Positions 20,111-33,495 of a stretch of 64,000 bases of DNA are shown here, piece by piece. The DNA is from Methanobrevibacter millerae (GTDB taxonomy: Archaea; Methanobacteriota; Methanobacteria; Methanobacteriales; Methanobacteriaceae), in contig NZ_FMXB01000001.1 of NCBI RefSeq assembly GCF_900103415.1, forward strand, positions 1 through 64,000. The letters run 5' to 3'. A program made the position numbers and the translations under genes. Numbering within the stretch: the first letter of the stretch is position 1; each line of letters opens with the position of its first letter. The notes under the pieces were generated by a model. It saw only the letters and a program-made list of their open reading frames with translations. It made no database searches and had not been told where the DNA came from.

Positions 20111-20134
20111 AAAATCATTTATTAGGTGATAAAC

Positions 20135-20629
20135 ATGGTTAATTGTCTTGTTTGTGGAAAATCTATAGAAGATGAAAAATTTTGTTCGAATTGTGGCTCA
20201 GCTATCCATAAAGAAAGAAAGGTTGATAATGATTTGTCAGATATTAATAATACTAAATATTGTACTAATTGTGGTGAACTGGTGGAAGAGAATGATCAAT
20301 TTTGTTCATATTGTGGAAATCAAATAAATGGCGATAACTTCTCTGGAAATAAAATGGAAAATTGTGAAAATATCGATAAAACAATTAATGATGCAGAAAT
20401 AGGTTCTAAGGATATTTTAAAAGAAGCAATACCAAATACGAAACGAAGTTTAAAACATTTGGATTGGAAAGATTTGGTAGGTGGGCCAGTATACACATCA
20501 TTAAGAAAATATAACAGAGGAAAAAATAAGCAATGTGTATATTGTGGCACACCTTATGAAGACGAATCTGATTACTGTATGGAATGTGGAAATAATCTTA
20601 AAATTCAAAGAAAGCAAATGGGAGAGTAG
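20135..20629 (+). CDS. triple zinc-ribbon protein
   Basis: 164 residues with three CxxC...CxxCG ribbons: residues 4-21 (CLVCG...CSNCG), about 43-62 (CTNCG...CSYCG) and about 134-152 (CVYCG...CMECG). The low-complexity linker holds a basic stretch (KHLDWKDLVGG). No membrane segment. ATG 20135 follows AGGTGAT. It lies between an unknown gene and a ribbon-plus-membrane gene. Likely a metal-binding scaffold protein; no enzymatic role is visible. Confidence 0.7.
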   Translation: MVNCLVCGKSIEDEKFCSNCGSAIHKERKVDNDLSDINNTKYCTNCGELVEENDQFCSYCGNQINGDNFSGNKMENCENIDKTINDAEIGSKDILKEAIPNTKRSLKHLDWKDLVGGPVYTSLRKYNRGKNKQCVYCGTPYEDESDYCMECGNNLKIQRKQMGE

Positions 20630-20650
20630 CTTAATAAAAATGGTGATTAT

Positions 20651-21205
20651 ATGGTAAAATACTGTTCGAATTGTGGTCATGTAGTAAGTCACGATGATAA
20701 ATTTTGTGAAAATTGTGGATCTAAGATAGAAAATAACGAAACCAGTAATAAAACAGTAAATAATAAAGGCACTAATGAAGTAGTAACCAATGCAGATACG
20801 ATAGATAGCGATTATTTGATAAGTATATTAATAATTGGTGGAATTTATACTGTTATTGCTTTATTAATTGGTGTTATTTTCCTTGCATTAACAATGGGCA
20901 CTATAAACGGCAATTTAATATGGGGATATGACTCAGGTCTTACTTGGTGGAGTTTTATCGTAGGAGTATTTGTTATGTCCTGTCTTATAGGGATATCCGA
21001 AGAAAATCTAATTTATAAAGTTTCATGCGGTTTTATAACTGGTTTGTTTACTTCTATATTATGCATGCCTGTAGTTTCATTATTATGGGGAGAAACTATG
21101 TCAAGTGCATTATCTTTGCTTTGGGGAAATCAAACATTTATATTAATAATAGTTGGGGTTATAACATCTGTAGTGGTTAGTATGCTCTTTTCTGATAATA
21201 AATAA
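20651..21205 (+). CDS. zinc-ribbon multi-pass membrane protein
   Basis: 184 residues. One N-terminal ribbon (CSNCG...CENCG, residues 5-23), an Asn/Thr-rich linker, then about four hydrophobic segments (about 55-82, 98-116, 122-145 and 158-180). The family is not recognised. GGTGAT precedes the ATG. Last gene of the 19661-21205 run. Confidence 0.65.
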   Translation: MVKYCSNCGHVVSHDDKFCENCGSKIENNETSNKTVNNKGTNEVVTNADTIDSDYLISILIIGGIYTVIALLIGVIFLALTMGTINGNLIWGYDSGLTWWSFIVGVFVMSCLIGISEENLIYKVSCGFITGLFTSILCMPVVSLLWGETMSSALSLLWGNQTFILIIVGVITSVVVSMLFSDNK

Positions 21206-21900: not shown

Positions 21901-21934
21901 TCATTAAATAAATGAATAAAATGATGTGAAAATT

Positions 21935-23272
21935 ATGTCAGGAAAAGATAATAAATTAGACCAAATAATAAAGACGATTGACGAAAATGATATAAAATTT
22001 CTGAAATTACAGTTCTCAGATATCCATGGACTGCCTAAAAGCATGGCTGTTCCGCTTAAAAAAGCAGCTGACGTTGAAGACATTGTAAATGACGGATTAC
22101 TCTTTGACGGATCATCTGTCGCAGGTTTAGCTTCAATCAATGACAGTGACCTGCTTGCAAAACCGGATATCAACACCTTCTCAATGATTCCATGGAGACC
22201 TGAAGCAAAAGGTACCAGCCGTTTCATCTGTGACATTTTCACAACCGACGGCAAACCTTACGACGGAGACCCAAGGGGAGTCTTAAAAAAATCATTACAG
22301 CTGGCAGAAAAAAGAGGATACCAGTTCAACATGGGTCCTGAACCGGAATTCTTCATCATCAAAAAGGACGAAGACGGACACTACATCCCTGCAGACGAAG
22401 CTGAATACTTTGACGTAGAGCCATTAGACCAGGGAACTGACATCAGAAGGGAAATCGTATTAGGTCTCGAAAAGCTTGACTTCGACGTTGAAGTAAGCCA
22501 CCACGAAGTGGCAGCAGGTCAGCACGAAGTCGACTTCAAATACGCAGATGCTTTAAAAACGGCAGATGCTGTTATCACATTCAAGGAAGCTGTTAAAGCT
22601 TTAGTTAACAATTTAGGTTTCAAGGCAACATTCATGCCAAAACCATTCCTGGGAATCAACGGTAGCGGAATGCACTGTAACCAGAGTTTATTCAAAAACG
22701 GAGAAAACATCTTCTACGACCCAGATACCGAAACCCAGATTTCACAGGAAGCATTGTACTTCATCGGAGGACTGTTAAAACACGCTCCGGCTTTATCATC
22801 AATTTTATCCCCTACCGTAAACTCATACAAACGTCTTGTACCTGGTTACGAAGCACCATGCTACATCGCATACGGATTCAAAAACAGGTCAACATTATTA
22901 AGGATTCCTGCATCCCGTGGCTTAGGTACGAGAATCGAATGCAGGTCAGCTGACCCATCCTGTAACCCTTACTTAGCATTCGCTGTGCTTCTTGAAGCTG
23001 GTTTAGACGGTATGGACAACAAGATTGATCCTGGTGAACCAACCGAAGAAAACCTCTTCGCATTTTCCGAAGATGAGCTCGTAGAGAAAGGAATTTCAAG
23101 CCTTCCAACCAGTTTATGGGAAGCATACCATGCTCTTGAAGAGGATGAGGTTGTCAAAAACGCAATCGGAGAAAAGGTCTTCAACCAGTTCTACAACATC
23201 AAAAGGGCTGAATGGGACGCTTACAGAATTCAGGTATTCGATTACGAAAGGGATGAATACTTAGACGTATAG
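21935..23272 (+). CDS. glnA: glutamine synthetase type I
   Basis: A 445-residue dodecameric enzyme making glutamine from glutamate, ammonia and ATP. It shows the N-terminal [36 protein letters not shown] and [13 protein letters not shown] metal-site motifs, [11 protein letters not shown], and the C-terminal [18 protein letters not shown]-site region. The length fits the GSI-alpha group. ATG 21935 is preferred over a GTG nine bases earlier. It is monocistronic, ending in a GC hairpin terminator. The NrpR-like operator implies control by nitrogen status. Confidence 0.97.
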
Positions 23273-23413: not shown

Positions 23414-23457
23414 GAAGAATTTAATACACTGATTATTTATTTTTGGAGGTAGAAAAT

Positions 23458-24375
23458 ATGTGTGGAATAGCAGGTGTAATATATAAGGATAAGAAATCTC
23501 ACCATGTGGGTGAGGCATTAACCTCAATGCTCGAATCACTTCAGCACAGAGGTCCGGATTCAGCAGGTTATGCAATATACGGAAGTTTAAACTTCCCTGA
23601 TAACTACTATCAGTTAAACATTGAAGTCAAAAGAAAAAGGGGAGTTTTAGACAATTTAAAATCATTATTAACCCAATTCAGTCCAATATTTGAAGAGGAA
23701 ATCGTCGAATCCGTAGGGGACTCAGACGTGTACAAATGCAAAATCGCATTGGACGAATATTCACTTTTAAAACCATGTATCAGCGAAATAGACGACTTAA
23801 AAGACGTTAACGTCATAAACGGTTCACATTCCTTTGAAATGATAAAGGACACTGGTAAAGTCAAAGACATTGCAGAGCGTTTCGACGTTCCAAGCAGAAT
23901 GGGAACCCACGGAATAGGACACACTCGTTTTGCAACAGAAAGCGGCGTTGACCGTTATCACGCACACCCTTACCAGAGCTATATCATACCTGACATCACG
24001 GTAGTGCACAACGGCCAGATCACCAATTACTGGAAAATAAGAGATCCTTTGGAAAGGAAAGGACACACCTTCGAGTCATTCAACGATACCGAATGCATCG
24101 TTCACTACATGGCAGACAAGCTCAATCAGGGATACAAGCTTGAGGAAGCTTTGGACCAGGCAGTGATTGATCTGGACGGTCCGTTTTCAATACTTGTCGG
24201 AACCCCGAACGGCATTGGAATCGCAAAGGACAAGCTCGGACTAAGGCCGGGCGTAATGGTTGAAACCGATGAAATATTTGCCGTTGCTTCAGAGGAAATG
24301 GCACTTCACGACGTCGTCGATTCCGACCAGATTGAACAGATTGCTCCTGGCGAGACAAGGGCTTACACAATCTAG
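23458..24375 (+). CDS. archaeal glutamate synthase, glutamine amidotransferase subunit
   Basis: A 305-residue class II (Ntn) amidotransferase. The start MCGIAGV puts the nucleophile Cys at position 2; LQHRGPDSAGY, HTRFATES and VHNGQITNY are conserved active-site motifs. It hydrolyses glutamine and passes ammonia to the FMN-dependent synthase encoded at 26120. ATG 23458 follows GGAGG nine bases upstream, and family members require Cys directly after Met. It opens an operon with the GXGXG subunit, the FrhB-like protein and the synthase, all with short gaps. Confidence 0.92.
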   Translation: MCGIAGVIYKDKKSHHVGEALTSMLESLQHRGPDSAGYAIYGSLNFPDNYYQLNIEVKRKRGVLDNLKSLLTQFSPIFEEEIVESVGDSDVYKCKIALDEYSLLKPCISEIDDLKDVNVINGSHSFEMIKDTGKVKDIAERFDVPSRMGTHGIGHTRFATESGVDRYHAHPYQSYIIPDITVVHNGQITNYWKIRDPLERKGHTFESFNDTECIVHYMADKLNQGYKLEEALDQAVIDLDGPFSILVGTPNGIGIAKDKLGLRPGVMVETDEIFAVASEEMALHDVVDSDQIEQIAPGETRAYTI

Positions 24376-24387
24376 GAAGGGATTTTC

Positions 24388-25041
24388 ATGAAAGAATACG
24401 TTATTGACGCTAAAAACATGGAAGAAAAGGATTTAAACCGTGCCATCAAGGAGCATGCAATTAACTATGATAAATTAATCATCGACAATCCCGATTCCAA
24501 GCACAACATCTGCGCAGGGCTCAGCGAAGAGGTTGAAATTCAAATCAACGGCTCTGCAGGATATTTTGTGGGAACCATGGTCAACGGCCCAAGAATACAC
24601 ATCAACGGGAACGCAGGATGGTTTGCCGGAGACAACATGACCGAAGGCGAACTCATCATCGAAGGAACTGCCGGTGACGGCGCAGGACAGGGAATCTATG
24701 GAGGAACTGTTTTAGTTAAATGCGGTGCCGGTTCAAGAACTGGTGAAATTATGAAAGGCGGAACCGTCATTATCGGCGGAAACAGCGGATTCATGACCGG
24801 ACTTCTCATGATGGGAGGAAGACTCATAATTCTCGGTGACGTTACAGATGACGTCGGAGAATCAATCATGAGAGGCACAATCTACGTTCTTGGAGACGTC
24901 AAAAGCCTTGGAAAAAATGCTGTTTTTGAGGATTTCACTGAAAAAGACAAAAAAGAGCTTGAAGAAATCTTAACAGAATACGGCTTTGATTTGACAGACG
25001 AAGACTATTCAAACTTTAAAAAAATCGTTAATAGGAGCTAA
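24388..25041 (+). CDS. archaeal glutamate synthase, GXGXG-domain subunit
   Basis: A 217-residue right-handed beta-helix of the glutamate-synthase alpha-subunit C-terminal type. The repeating G-x-G-G pattern (GTAGDGAGQGIYGGTVLVK, GGNSGFMTG, GGRLIILG) is plain, and a helical tail follows residue 185. In bacterial GOGAT this domain is fused to the synthase; here it is separate. It lies 12 bases after the amidotransferase and 4 bases before the FrhB-like gene. Confidence 0.9.
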   Translation: MKEYVIDAKNMEEKDLNRAIKEHAINYDKLIIDNPDSKHNICAGLSEEVEIQINGSAGYFVGTMVNGPRIHINGNAGWFAGDNMTEGELIIEGTAGDGAGQGIYGGTVLVKCGAGSRTGEIMKGGTVIIGGNSGFMTGLLMMGGRLIILGDVTDDVGESIMRGTIYVLGDVKSLGKNAVFEDFTEKDKKELEEILTEYGFDLTDEDYSNFKKIVNRS

Positions 25042-25045
25042 TAAA

Positions 25046-26119
25046 ATGAGTGAAGATAAAATAGCAATGGTCGGAACGCCATGTGAAATTATGGCAGCAT
25101 CCAAACTTCAGCATTACACAGATAGCCCTATTGATGTTAAACTGGGCTTGTTCTGTATGGAGAACTTTTCATATAAGTATTTCGTAAATCTCCTGAAAGA
25201 ATATGATTTGAAAATGGATGACATTGAAAAGTTCCAAATCGAAAAAGGATTCGTATTTCTATTATTAAAGACAAAGGAAACGATTAAAATTCCTTTATCA
25301 GTAGCTAAAAGGATTATCAGGAAAAACTGTAACATATGCGTTGAACTGACCTCTGAAACCTCAGACATCTCAATAGGTTCAATCGGATCACAAGACGGCT
25401 GGTCAACGCTGATTATAAGAACCGAAAAAGGTGAAGAAATCGTAAAGGGTGCAATAGAGCAGAGATACATTGAAGCTGAAGACTTTACAGATTCACAGTT
25501 CGCATTATTGGAAAGACTTGCAGAAAACAAGATTAACAAAAACCTTGAGCATATCGAGCAGAGGGAGTTTCTTGCAAGGCCGGTATTATATCAAAGGGAC
25601 AAATCAGACGATTCAATTGAAAAGGAGTTTTCAGAATCTGATTTCTCAGACTTAAGGACCAATGTCATTGACGTTGGAGCATGTGTTTTATGCGGTGCGT
25701 GCGAATATGCATGTCCAGAAAACCTAATCACAATTGATGATACGAAACCAAGAATGAAAGGGGAATGCCCACCGGACTGCCACGCATGCTTTGCCGTATG
25801 TCCGAGGACATTCATACCTGAGAACTTAAGAAACGATAATTCAAAAGCCATAGGCGATTATCTGAAAGTGCTGACGGTAAGGTCTATCAAGCATTCACAG
25901 GGTCAGGACGGATCAATAGTCACAACTCTTTTAGACTATTTATTAACCAATCAGATCGTAACCGAGGCATTAATTGTCGATAAAAAGGACGAGCTTGCCT
26001 GGAAGCCTTATGCCAAAAAAACCGCTGACATCGACGAGGTTGTCAAATCCGGAGGAACCAAGTATTCAGTCTGTCCGGTATTCAAGGCACTTAAAGACAC
26101 TGAAGAGGGGGTTAACTAA
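25046..26119 (+). CDS. FrhB-like F420/flavin iron-sulfur protein, circularly permuted
   Basis: 357 residues. Residues 1-165 match the C-terminal half of F420-hydrogenase beta subunits (VGTPCEIMAASK, LGLFCMENFSY, GSIGSQDGWS). Residues 213-252 hold two 4Fe-4S motifs (Cys 213/216/219/223 and 241/245/248/252). Residues 280-350 match the N-terminal half of FrhB (SQGQDGSIVTTLLDYLL, ELAWKPYAKK, SGGTKYSVCP). This is the reverse of the usual order. FrhB binds FAD, an iron-sulfur cluster and F420, so the protein may feed electrons from F420H2 or ferredoxin to glutamate synthase. Its stop abuts the synthase ATG. Confidence 0.85.
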   Translation: MSEDKIAMVGTPCEIMAASKLQHYTDSPIDVKLGLFCMENFSYKYFVNLLKEYDLKMDDIEKFQIEKGFVFLLLKTKETIKIPLSVAKRIIRKNCNICVELTSETSDISIGSIGSQDGWSTLIIRTEKGEEIVKGAIEQRYIEAEDFTDSQFALLERLAENKINKNLEHIEQREFLARPVLYQRDKSDDSIEKEFSESDFSDLRTNVIDVGACVLCGACEYACPENLITIDDTKPRMKGECPPDCHACFAVCPRTFIPENLRNDNSKAIGDYLKVLTVRSIKHSQGQDGSIVTTLLDYLLTNQIVTEALIVDKKDELAWKPYAKKTADIDEVVKSGGTKYSVCPVFKALKDTEEGVN

Positions 26120-27607
26120 ATGTCATTTACAGTAGAAAGGAAAATTGAAATCTGCCGTCAGAACAACGACCGTCCGGGCTGCTGCTGGTATCTTTGTGAC
26201 AATCCCCACAAGTCCTCTTGTAAGAACTGTTACAGCTGCTATTCAAACTGTCCGCATAACGTTTATGAGGTTATAAACGACGAACCTCTCCCTATTCATC
26301 AGGAAAACTGTGTGGGATGTAAAATCTGTGAGGAAATGTGTCCGACACACGCAATTTACGTAAGACCTTTGGTTGATGAAGGCAGAGGTGTCTGGTCAAA
26401 CTCAACGATGGTTGAAATCAAGCGTAAAAGCCAGACCGGTTCATACAAGGTCCGTGGATGCGGATTGACAAGAAGAATTCCGACATTCGATGACTTAAGC
26501 ATTTTACCGGCACAGGTATCAAGGCCTCCGATTGACTCATACAGAGAAGCCTGCAAGACCTCAGTGGTTTTAGGTGACCGCTTTGCTGAAAATCCGATTG
26601 AAATCGACACTCCTATAATGATTGGGGCAATGTCATTCGGTGCATTAAGTAAAGAGGCAAAAATAGCTTTAGCTATTGGAAGCAGCAAAGTCGGCTCAAT
26701 TGCAAACACCGGTGAAGGAGGAATGCTTCCGGAAGAAAGGGAATATGCAGACAAATTGATTGCACAGTACGCATCAGGCCGTTTTGGAGTGTCTGCAAGC
26801 TATCTAAACAACGCCGAAGCAGTTGAAATCAAAATCGGTCAGGGAGCAAAATCCGGTATGGGAGGACACTTATTAGCCCACAAGGTTACAGCAGAAGTGG
26901 CTAAAGTGAGAAACATCCCTGAAGGAACTTCAGCATTAAGCCCTGCAAGGCACATGGACATTGTCGGTCCTGAGGATCTGGGAATGAAAATCAATCAATT
27001 AAGAGAAATCACCGACTGGAAAATCCCTATCATTGTCAAATTCGCATCAGGCCGTGTCGAACAGGATGTTAAAATCGCCGCTAAGGCCGGAGCAGACATT
27101 ATCGTTGTCGACGGTATGCAGGGAGGAACCGGTGCCGGACCTGAAGTCGTAACCGAACATGCAGGTATTCCGACAATAGAGGCAATCGTCAAGGCAGACG
27201 ACGCATTAAAGGAAATCAACTTAAGAAGCGAAGTCAGCTTAATTGCTGCAGGGGGAATAAGGTCCGGAGCGGACGTTGCAAAGGCAATAGCTCTGGGTGC
27301 AGATGCGGTATACATCGCTACATCAGCATTAATCTCTATAGGATGTAAGGTCTGTCAGAGCTGTTCTGAAGGAATCTGTCCTAAAGGTATCGCAACCCAG
27401 GACAGGGCTCTTAGAAGAAGGCTTGACCCTATAAGGAAAGGCCAGCAGGTTGCAAACTACATTGAGGCAATGACTCAGGAAGTAACCTCACTGACCCAGC
27501 AGGCAGGTAATACGGACATTGAAAATCTGGAACGTCAGGACCTTGTAGCATTGACAATGGATGCATCACAGCTGACTGGAGTGCCTATGGTGAGCAAAAA
27601 GTATTAA
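26120..27607 (+). CDS. gltB: archaeal glutamate synthase, FMN-binding synthase subunit
   Basis: A 495-residue protein. Residues about 30-80 carry ferredoxin-like cysteines (CKNCYSCYSNCP and CVGCKICEEMCP). The rest is the TIM-barrel synthase domain with MSFGALSKEAK, NTGEGGMLPEE, AKSGMGGHLL, VVDGMQGGTGAGP and AAGGIRSGADVAKA. A C-terminal CKVCQSCSEGICPKG motif ligates the 3Fe-4S cluster. It makes glutamate from 2-oxoglutarate and ammonia released by the amidotransferase. It starts directly after the permuted FrhB-like gene stop, which implies coupled expression. Confidence 0.95.
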   Translation: MSFTVERKIEICRQNNDRPGCCWYLCDNPHKSSCKNCYSCYSNCPHNVYEVINDEPLPIHQENCVGCKICEEMCPTHAIYVRPLVDEGRGVWSNSTMVEIKRKSQTGSYKVRGCGLTRRIPTFDDLSILPAQVSRPPIDSYREACKTSVVLGDRFAENPIEIDTPIMIGAMSFGALSKEAKIALAIGSSKVGSIANTGEGGMLPEEREYADKLIAQYASGRFGVSASYLNNAEAVEIKIGQGAKSGMGGHLLAHKVTAEVAKVRNIPEGTSALSPARHMDIVGPEDLGMKINQLREITDWKIPIIVKFASGRVEQDVKIAAKAGADIIVVDGMQGGTGAGPEVVTEHAGIPTIEAIVKADDALKEINLRSEVSLIAAGGIRSGADVAKAIALGADAVYIATSALISIGCKVCQSCSEGICPKGIATQDRALRRRLDPIRKGQQVANYIEAMTQEVTSLTQQAGNTDIENLERQDLVALTMDASQLTGVPMVSKKY

Positions 27608-30959: not shown

Positions 30960-31937
30960 ATGGCAAAATACTGTAAAAAATGCGGAGCTGAAATCAAGGA
31001 TAATGCATTATTCTGCCCGCAGTGTGGTGCAAAAGGTGATTTAGCTGTAAAAAAGTCGGAGGATAAAAAAGATAAAAACAAGTATCTGATAATCGGTCTT
31101 ATTGCTGTTGTAGCTATTCTTGCTGCCGGTGTGCTTTATGCAAGCGGAGTTTTCAATAGCGAAACTCCACTTCAGGAGACCAATTTCGGAGATTTTAAAA
31201 TGCTTGCTCCTGTCGGATCCAATTATGTCGAAACCAATTCAGTGCCGTCCTATGGAGACATAGGTGGTTTCATCATTCTTGAAAATGGTGGAAAATATAA
31301 AAAAGAGGTTTACTGTATCATGGTTTCAACGATTGAAGGTAAAACGACACCATCAAGTGTTAGTTTGGATAGGCAGGAAGGAGACATTACGATTTTCAAG
31401 GATAATCAGGGAAATGATGGATATTTAGTTGAAAGAAAAGTCGGCGATTACGAATTCACTCTGATGGGAAGCGATGACAAGGCAATGATTAAGATGCTTA
31501 ATTCAGTTCAGATAACCAACACAAACGGATTGCTGTCTAAAAGCACTCCAACGGTAGAACAGACTTCAAGCACTGCCGCTCCAACTTCATCCGCTCCAGC
31601 TTCATCATCACCGTCTTCAATAAGCATATTGGGAGGAAGCTTCACAACCGGAAGCGCTGATGCAGACAAGACCTACGCAAGGATTAATGTGGGAACGGCA
31701 CATGCCGGAGAGAACGTAATTGTCCAAATCTTCTATTCAAGGGATGGAAACGCTTTAAACAACGGTAACATGGTTCCTGCAAGCGTGCATTCAGACGGCT
31801 ATCTTGAAATAGCCAGTGCTGATGCATACAAGTACTATCCTGACCATGCGACAATCAAAATTTATGACTCAAACAGCAAGCTGCTGACGACCAAGGACGT
31901 TTCACTGTCCCCTACAAGCGGTACTCAAACATTCTGA
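30960..31937 (+). CDS. zinc-ribbon, single-helix membrane protein with extracytoplasmic domain
   Basis: 325 residues: a zinc ribbon (CKKCG...CPQCG, 5-23), a Lys-rich stretch, one membrane helix (about 42-63), an unknown beta-rich domain (about 70-190), a Ser/Thr/Pro/Ala linker (about 195-222) and a second small beta domain (about 225-320). The N-terminus is predicted inside and the large part outside the cell. AGAGGTG precedes the ATG. The function is unknown; it resembles sensor-like ribbon proteins of Methanobrevibacter. Confidence 0.7.
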   Translation: MAKYCKKCGAEIKDNALFCPQCGAKGDLAVKKSEDKKDKNKYLIIGLIAVVAILAAGVLYASGVFNSETPLQETNFGDFKMLAPVGSNYVETNSVPSYGDIGGFIILENGGKYKKEVYCIMVSTIEGKTTPSSVSLDRQEGDITIFKDNQGNDGYLVERKVGDYEFTLMGSDDKAMIKMLNSVQITNTNGLLSKSTPTVEQTSSTAAPTSSAPASSSPSSISILGGSFTTGSADADKTYARINVGTAHAGENVIVQIFYSRDGNALNNGNMVPASVHSDGYLEIASADAYKYYPDHATIKIYDSNSKLLTTKDVSLSPTSGTQTF

Positions 31938-32493: not shown

Positions 32494-33495
32494 ATGGCAA
32501 AAGATGATAGGAGTGCCGTTAATCCGTTTACCGGCAAAAAACATCACGACAACGTTAACGACGACAAGTTTCTGGAGGAATGTTATCAGCAGTATTATGC
32601 CATCATAAGCAAGGCTCAAATCATCGATAACACGGCTGAAGGTCATTTGATAGCTAATGTGGCAAACAATTTAATCAATGCGGTTGAAAACTATCTTTCC
32701 ACAATCGGAAGGCTCGATTACGTTGAGGATTACTACGACTGGGAATTCCACCTGCTTTTAGACAATACAGTCAATGCCTTCTGCATTCCCGGAGGCAAAA
32801 TCGTAGTGTATACAGGTATTTTATCTGTTGCGAACAATGAAGAGGAGCTTGCATTTATTTTGGGCCACGAAATGGCTCACGCATTGCTTGACCATACCCG
32901 AACCCGCCAAAGCGCCCAGAATACCAAAAACACCTTGACTACGGCTTCATGGATTGGAAGCTTTGCTTTTGACTTGGTCGGCCTTGGCGGAATCGGAGAC
33001 CTTGCAAGGGTTGCCGTCAATACTGCAGATATCGGTTCACAGTTTTTCCTTTTAAATCCATGGGGAAGGGACCAGGAGCTTGAAGCGGACCGTCTGGGCA
33101 TGCTGATTATTCACTGGGCAGGCTATGATATTACTGGTGTTCCAGCATTCTGGCAAAAGATGAGTGGACAGAACGCCAACAATTTTGATTTTTTTTCAAC
33201 ACATCCCGCCGATGAAAAAAGGATTAACGTGATGAGGTCTCTGGTTGATGAAATCGAGGAAGGTATCGATTACTCAAAACCTGTCCTTGCCGATAAGCCT
33301 GACGTTAAATACACTCCGAAAAAGGATAATATCGAAACAAAAATCTGCGATCATTGCGGTTCTGAGGAAAGCGAGGATGCAGAATTCTGTACGAATTGTG
33401 GAGAGAAATTTGCGGATGCTAAATTCTGCACTAATTGCGGCAATCAGGTAAGCGAAGGAGATGCGTTCTGTACAAACTGTGGACAAAAGCTTTAG
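32494..33495 (+). CDS. M48-type metalloprotease with C-terminal zinc ribbons
   Basis: 333 residues. The protease domain has HEMAH (125-129) and the third-ligand motif QELEADRLG (about 192-200), as in HtpX/Ste24-like M48 peptidases. Membrane helices are not obvious, although a hydrophobic stretch (about 150-175) is present. The last 55 residues hold three half or full ribbon motifs (CDHCG, CTNCG three times). A TATA-like ATATTTATATTA at about 32460 places the start site close to the ATG, so the mRNA may be leaderless. The ribbon tail may recruit partners. Confidence 0.85.
   Translation: MAKDDRSAVNPFTGKKHHDNVNDDKFLEECYQQYYAIISKAQIIDNTAEGHLIANVANNLINAVENYLSTIGRLDYVEDYYDWEFHLLLDNTVNAFCIPGGKIVVYTGILSVANNEEELAFILGHEMAHALLDHTRTRQSAQNTKNTLTTASWIGSFAFDLVGLGGIGDLARVAVNTADIGSQFFLLNPWGRDQELEADRLGMLIIHWAGYDITGVPAFWQKMSGQNANNFDFFSTHPADEKRINVMRSLVDEIEEGIDYSKPVLADKPDVKYTPKKDNIETKICDHCGSEESEDAEFCTNCGEKFADAKFCTNCGNQVSEGDAFCTNCGQKL

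Follow-up and report, generated by a model that had tools for sequence, protein, structure and literature searches.

Within a glutamine synthetase-glutamate synthase (GS-GOGAT) operon of Methanobrevibacter millerae lies an FrhB-family gene whose product, according to the initial annotation, begins with the C-terminal half of FrhB, continues with two 4Fe-4S motifs and ends with the N-terminal half. This raises the question of whether the order is real, how far it is conserved, and what such a protein would do for a glutamate synthase. Coordinates of the relevant features are given in Table 1; the window is the whole stretch of 64,000 nucleotides that was analysed.

Pfam and the swapped stretches in PDB matches both bear out the annotated arrangement. 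The open reading frame encodes 357 amino acids from an ATG start. The FrhB_FdhB_C domain (E 3e-44, 151 bits against a gathering score of 23.3, nearly the whole profile covered) comes first, followed by a Fer4_9 match (residues 212-256, E 8e-7) and the FrhB_FdhB_N domain (E 8e-16, 58.3 bits against a gathering score of 22), so that the domain order of the product is C, ferredoxin, N. Neither the usual N-then-C order nor a lack of FrhB similarity in the first 165 residues was found. Against the solved structures of FrhB, Fsr and F420-CODH subunits, the protein aligns as two stretches in swapped order; residues 4-172 correspond to 176-348 of 8riu_B, and residues 198-348 to 7-166 of the same chain. 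An AlphaFold2 model built from 42 orthologues has a mean pLDDT of 85.8 and a pTM of 0.87. Its best Foldseek matches are FrhB and Fsr structures, and F420-CODH subunits are matched too, over a single segment of about 180 residues only, as would be expected when an order-dependent aligner meets a permuted chain.

Table 1. Features of the GS-GOGAT operon and the permuted FrhB gene (window positions).
Feature	Position	Strand	Basis or remark
Glutamine synthetase (glnA), first gene of GS-GOGAT block	21926..23272	+	By sequence
Class II glutamine amidotransferase subunit	23458..24375	+	Pfam; likely start MCGIAG at 23458
GXGXG subunit of archaeal glutamate synthase	24388..25041	+	Pfam
AGGAG ribosome-binding site	25033..25037	+	8 bases 5' of ATG, within end of preceding gene; sequence
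Permuted FrhB-family subunit (C domain, 2x[4Fe-4S] ferredoxin, N domain)	25046..26119	+	Pfam, PDB sequence matches, genome survey, AlphaFold2
FrhB_FdhB_C domain, residues 4-149	25055..25492	+	Pfam PF04432
Two 4Fe-4S motifs, residues about 207-256	25664..25813	+	Pfam
FrhB_FdhB_N domain, residues 283-350	25892..26095	+	Pfam PF04422
FAD-site motifs: QDG 287-289, TKY 338-340	within 25892..26095	+	Roles from PMC3591093
GltS synthase subunit: N-terminal 2x[4Fe-4S] ferredoxin (residues about 31-80) and Glu_synthase FMN domain	26120..27607	+	Pfam, sequence

Relative to the three-piece Fsr/FpoF layout, the protein is exactly circularly permuted, from ferredoxin-N-C to C-ferredoxin-N; it is this layout, and not the two-piece FrhB, that is permuted. 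Identity as an ordinary FrhB or FpoF is ruled out by the domain order together with the NCBIfam cut-offs: the frhB equivalog TIGR03289 scores 182 bits against a cut-off of 331.5, and FpoF 127 bits against 475. There is next to no chance that assembly, a frameshift or gene calling produced the swapped order. It is found in a single open frame in 101 Methanobacteriota genomes and therefore is not such an artefact; GTDB loci carry it too, and it has been published for a Methanothermobacter protein (Mills et al. 2013, eLife, Fig. 9 legend; PMC3591093).

All cluster ligands and most cofactor motifs are retained. Across 79 aligned FrhB-family rows (24 GOGAT-type, 21 other permuted and 34 canonical), the FrhB [4Fe-4S] ligands Cys13, Cys37, Cys95 and Cys98 are invariant in 79/79, permuted or not; they were matched by motif to the ligands named as Cys104/134/192/195 in PMC3591093. 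Cys343 of the SVCP motif was considered as a fourth ligand and rejected, since the cuticularis-like clade has another residue there and PMC3591093 names other ligands. The eight ferredoxin cysteines (C213, C216, C219 and C223; C241, C245, C248 and C252) are all invariant in the 42 orthologues. Gly111 is likewise invariant in all 79 rows, and the Gly111-Ser115 loop of the F420 site is largely retained. Outside FdhB, Gln287-Asp288-Gly289 (start of the FAD helix) and Tyr340 (FAD loop; roles from PMC3591093) are nearly invariant in this alignment. The GKGK turn, a proposed holder of the F420 phosphate, is partly retained, with Lys67 a lysine in 15/24. With the motifs mostly kept, the permuted FrhB is predicted to bind both FAD and F420. 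These residues also bear on whether ferredoxin is the electron donor, with F420 as a side product, if it is bound by the protein. Two ferredoxin clusters do lie within the chain, and other glutamate synthases use ferredoxin (PMC3448663), but a full FrhB catalytic half with conserved FAD- and F420-site motifs would be superfluous in a protein that only relays electrons from ferredoxin, and we consider a ferredoxin donor very improbable.

The gene order of the operon is glnA, amidotransferase, GXGXG, permuted FrhB and Fd/GltS. The ATG of the permuted gene is four bases past the preceding stop codon, and the following gene starts directly after it, at 26120. For the amidotransferase, the listed open reading frame opens with TTG at 23443, and the MCGIAG start is likelier. 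GltS contains a Cys409-x5-Cys415-x4-Cys420 motif, which we take to be the [3Fe-4S] motif of glutamate synthases; this motif and the eight N-terminal ferredoxin cysteines are kept in relatives at 72-82% identity. The amidotransferase-GXGXG-FrhB-GltS arrangement was found in 50 of 80 related loci, 36 of these with a glutamine synthetase upstream, and the FrhB-GltS gap, measured between BLAST ends, is most often 4 bases. An operon shared with GltS, GXGXG and amidotransferase genes is what would be expected of a subunit of the proposed F420-dependent glutamate synthase (FGltS). No gene resembling GltD, the small subunit that donates electrons in NADPH-dependent GOGAT of the bacterial type, was found among the four operon proteins scanned with Pfam. 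Elsewhere in the window, several proteins (20126-21205, 30960-31937 and 32494-33495) have zinc-ribbon CxxCG motifs (such as MVKYCSNCG..., CTNCG repeats) at one end.

To place the gene in a wider context, we surveyed 115 Methanobacteriota genomes with a completeness of at least 85%. The permuted order is conserved across this methanogen class, with a complete open reading frame in 101/115 genomes. The initial annotation had supposed that the order might be conserved in other methanogens and simply unremarked; the first part holds for the phylum, while the second does not quite hold, given the brief description published in 2013 (PMC3591093). An orthologous GltS is present in 106/115 genomes, and 104 of these 106 also carry the permuted FrhB (101 whole, two split at contig ends and one decayed). 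In the decayed case, permuted FrhB, amidotransferase, GXGXG and GltS all seem to be broken by stops and frame changes, a joint decay. The permuted gene was found in 0/9 genomes without an orthologous GltS; in these nine, the best remaining match had an E value of 1e-73 to 1e-85. The co-occurrence is significant when genomes, rather than independent losses, are counted (Fisher p 8e-12). G009 and G055, both draft genomes, have the amidotransferase, GXGXG and GltS genes, and no permuted FrhB was detected in either.

The tally also takes in a clade where FrhB and GltS are unlinked. The clade is a second lineage of Methanobrevibacter type, at about 42-48% identity, and in 26 of its loci no GltS was detected next to FrhB; in seven of these viewed more closely, the neighbours are unrelated and the FrhB gene stands alone. 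In one genome of this kind (G034), the GltS operon does not contain the permuted FrhB. That the two genes are absent together although unlinked is, in this analysis, the strongest indication of FrhB and GltS acting together.

We propose, with a probability of roughly 80%, that the permuted FrhB is the F420H2-oxidising subunit of glutamate synthase. The suggestion in the initial annotation that a permuted F420 module serves this enzyme gains support from the operon and from the co-occurrence with GltS; the cofactors, complex formation, direction of electron flow from F420H2 and F420 specificity are what we infer. Electrons would pass from F420H2 to FAD, to the FrhB [4Fe-4S] cluster and to the two [4Fe-4S] clusters of the same chain, and then to the two [4Fe-4S] clusters at the start of GltS, the GltS [3Fe-4S] cluster and FMN. 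At the FMN site, 2-iminoglutarate, formed from 2-oxoglutarate and glutamine-derived ammonia, would be reduced to glutamate. Counted against this proposal are the two draft genomes without the gene, the partial loss of the GKGK turn and the stand-alone lineage, where the permuted FrhB therefore need not be a fixed subunit.

Among sampled archaea outside Methanobacteriota, full-length permuted relatives occur in 11 families, outside GOGAT. At 11 loci, genes for POR gamma, delta, alpha and beta subunits adjoin the permuted gene. At six others, in two separate tree groups, it lies immediately upstream of Mtd, the F420-dependent methylene-H4MPT dehydrogenase. At two loci it is clustered with a Tat-exported molybdopterin oxidoreductase, ferredoxin proteins and a multihaem cytochrome c, and at two more no informative neighbour was found. 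The POR, MTD, molybdopterin and cytochrome families were confirmed by Pfam for representative genes only, the others being named by sequence likeness. In one POR-linked locus (L115:5036-6667), a fusion joins the permuted module in-frame to TPP_enzyme_C, the POR beta domain, and is cut short by the contig end; it suggests a 2-oxoacid:F420 oxidoreductase. In three other POR-linked loci (L117, L121 and L123) the ferredoxin part has four cysteines only, and therefore at least one cluster has probably been lost.

These neighbours, together with the stand-alone gene of the unlinked lineage, fit a general F420H2:ferredoxin exchange protein whose own ferredoxin domain serves several acceptors, GltS among them. 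Against this, the gene is missing from 9/9 genomes without GltS and is embedded in the GltS operon elsewhere; a general exchange role is unlikely, and a dedicated F420H2-oxidising subunit of glutamate synthase is our preferred reading. We give even odds to a broader view, in which F420 modules with the C-ferredoxin-N order form a single, ancient branch of their own. They would serve GOGAT in Methanobacteria and, in archaea of other phyla, link F420 to 2-oxoacid:ferredoxin oxidoreductases, act beside Mtd and take part in a molybdopterin/multihaem-cytochrome cluster, the N domain at the C-terminus letting a partner fuse. Within the open-access literature, no published account of the permuted order outside the phylum or outside GOGAT was found.

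How the order arose was addressed with two trees. In the first (79 rows, N and C columns), the permuted rows fall into four or five groups, and a single permuted clade is not rejected (AU p 0.14). In the second, with ferredoxin columns added and some long branches left out, two changes are needed, and a single permuted clade fits slightly better, by 4 log units (AU p 0.65). A single origin is compatible with both trees and is slightly favoured over several. In its layout, the protein corresponds to the Fsr/FpoF-type module opened between N and C and joined up again through the ferredoxin piece. Such a gene probably arose when one of the ferredoxin-N-C type, present in tandem, lost its outer pieces. 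Such a change should shift the chain ends only and leave the fold unaltered. One locus (L139 in genome G249) illustrates how tandem duplication can yield a permuted gene: two adjacent FrhB-family genes are present, and the C half of the first plus the ferredoxin-N half of the second give the permuted order.

A redox flavoprotein that nature has circularly permuted, and that is conserved in this form throughout a class, offers a clean test of which parts of a fold tolerate moved ends. If F420H2 does drive ammonia assimilation in these archaea, their nitrogen metabolism would be coupled directly to the hydride carrier of methanogenesis rather than to NADPH or ferredoxin. The F420-GOGAT idea itself dates from 2011-2012. 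MTBMA_c06440/MTH193, with subunit 4 annotated as FrhB, was described as an F420-dependent glutamate synthase that "remains to be proven" (PMC3087415), and the names FGltS(I) and FGltS(II) followed, with FGltS(II)-alpha grouping with FrhB in a tree (PMC3448663). The proposal is also made in PMC3591093. The enzyme is still termed putative in 2026 (PMC13381448), and in the open literature we found no F420H2 measurement on this glutamate synthase as a purified enzyme. The interest lies mainly in this putative F420-GOGAT and in the wider permuted module, which supplies new candidates for F420-linked oxidation of pyruvate and other 2-oxoacids; PMC9012536 judges such F420 coupling feasible only in the oxidative direction. 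The swapped order has thus been reported before, though it has drawn little attention, and the F420-GOGAT proposal is not new either; how widely the permuted form occurs was not found described in the open literature, and "circular permutation" in combination with FrhB gave no match in the open-licence literature.

Comparison with known systems places the window protein as follows. FrhB of the F420-reducing hydrogenase (4ci0_C, 9r51_B) shares the C and N halves, the four cluster cysteines and the FAD motifs, but has no ferredoxin domain and has its halves in the opposite order. The N-terminal half of Fsr, FpoF and the subunits of F420-CODH and F420-Fwd (7npa, 8riu_B, 8rja_E) have the same three pieces and cluster cysteines, at about 30-35% identity in structural alignments. 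In the Fsr/FpoF type, as in the window protein, the 2x[4Fe-4S] ferredoxin domain is joined directly to the N domain, whereas the overall order is ferredoxin-N-C in the former and C-ferredoxin-N in the latter. FrhB modules are likewise plugged into other enzymes in ANME-1, where, in the relevant passages of PMC9012536 (2022), FrhB paralogues lie in PFOR and GltS clusters (FrhB6 with Pfor, FrhB10 with glutamate synthase) and domain order is not mentioned. The closest counterpart is the Methanothermobacter marburgensis glutamate synthase subunit (ADL58239), which has the same swapped order in the same kind of glutamate synthase and shows no substantial difference. The 182 and 83 residues given for it in PMC3591093 correspond to residues 1-182 and 268-350 of the window protein and, compared through that description, the window gene looks like its Methanobrevibacter orthologue.
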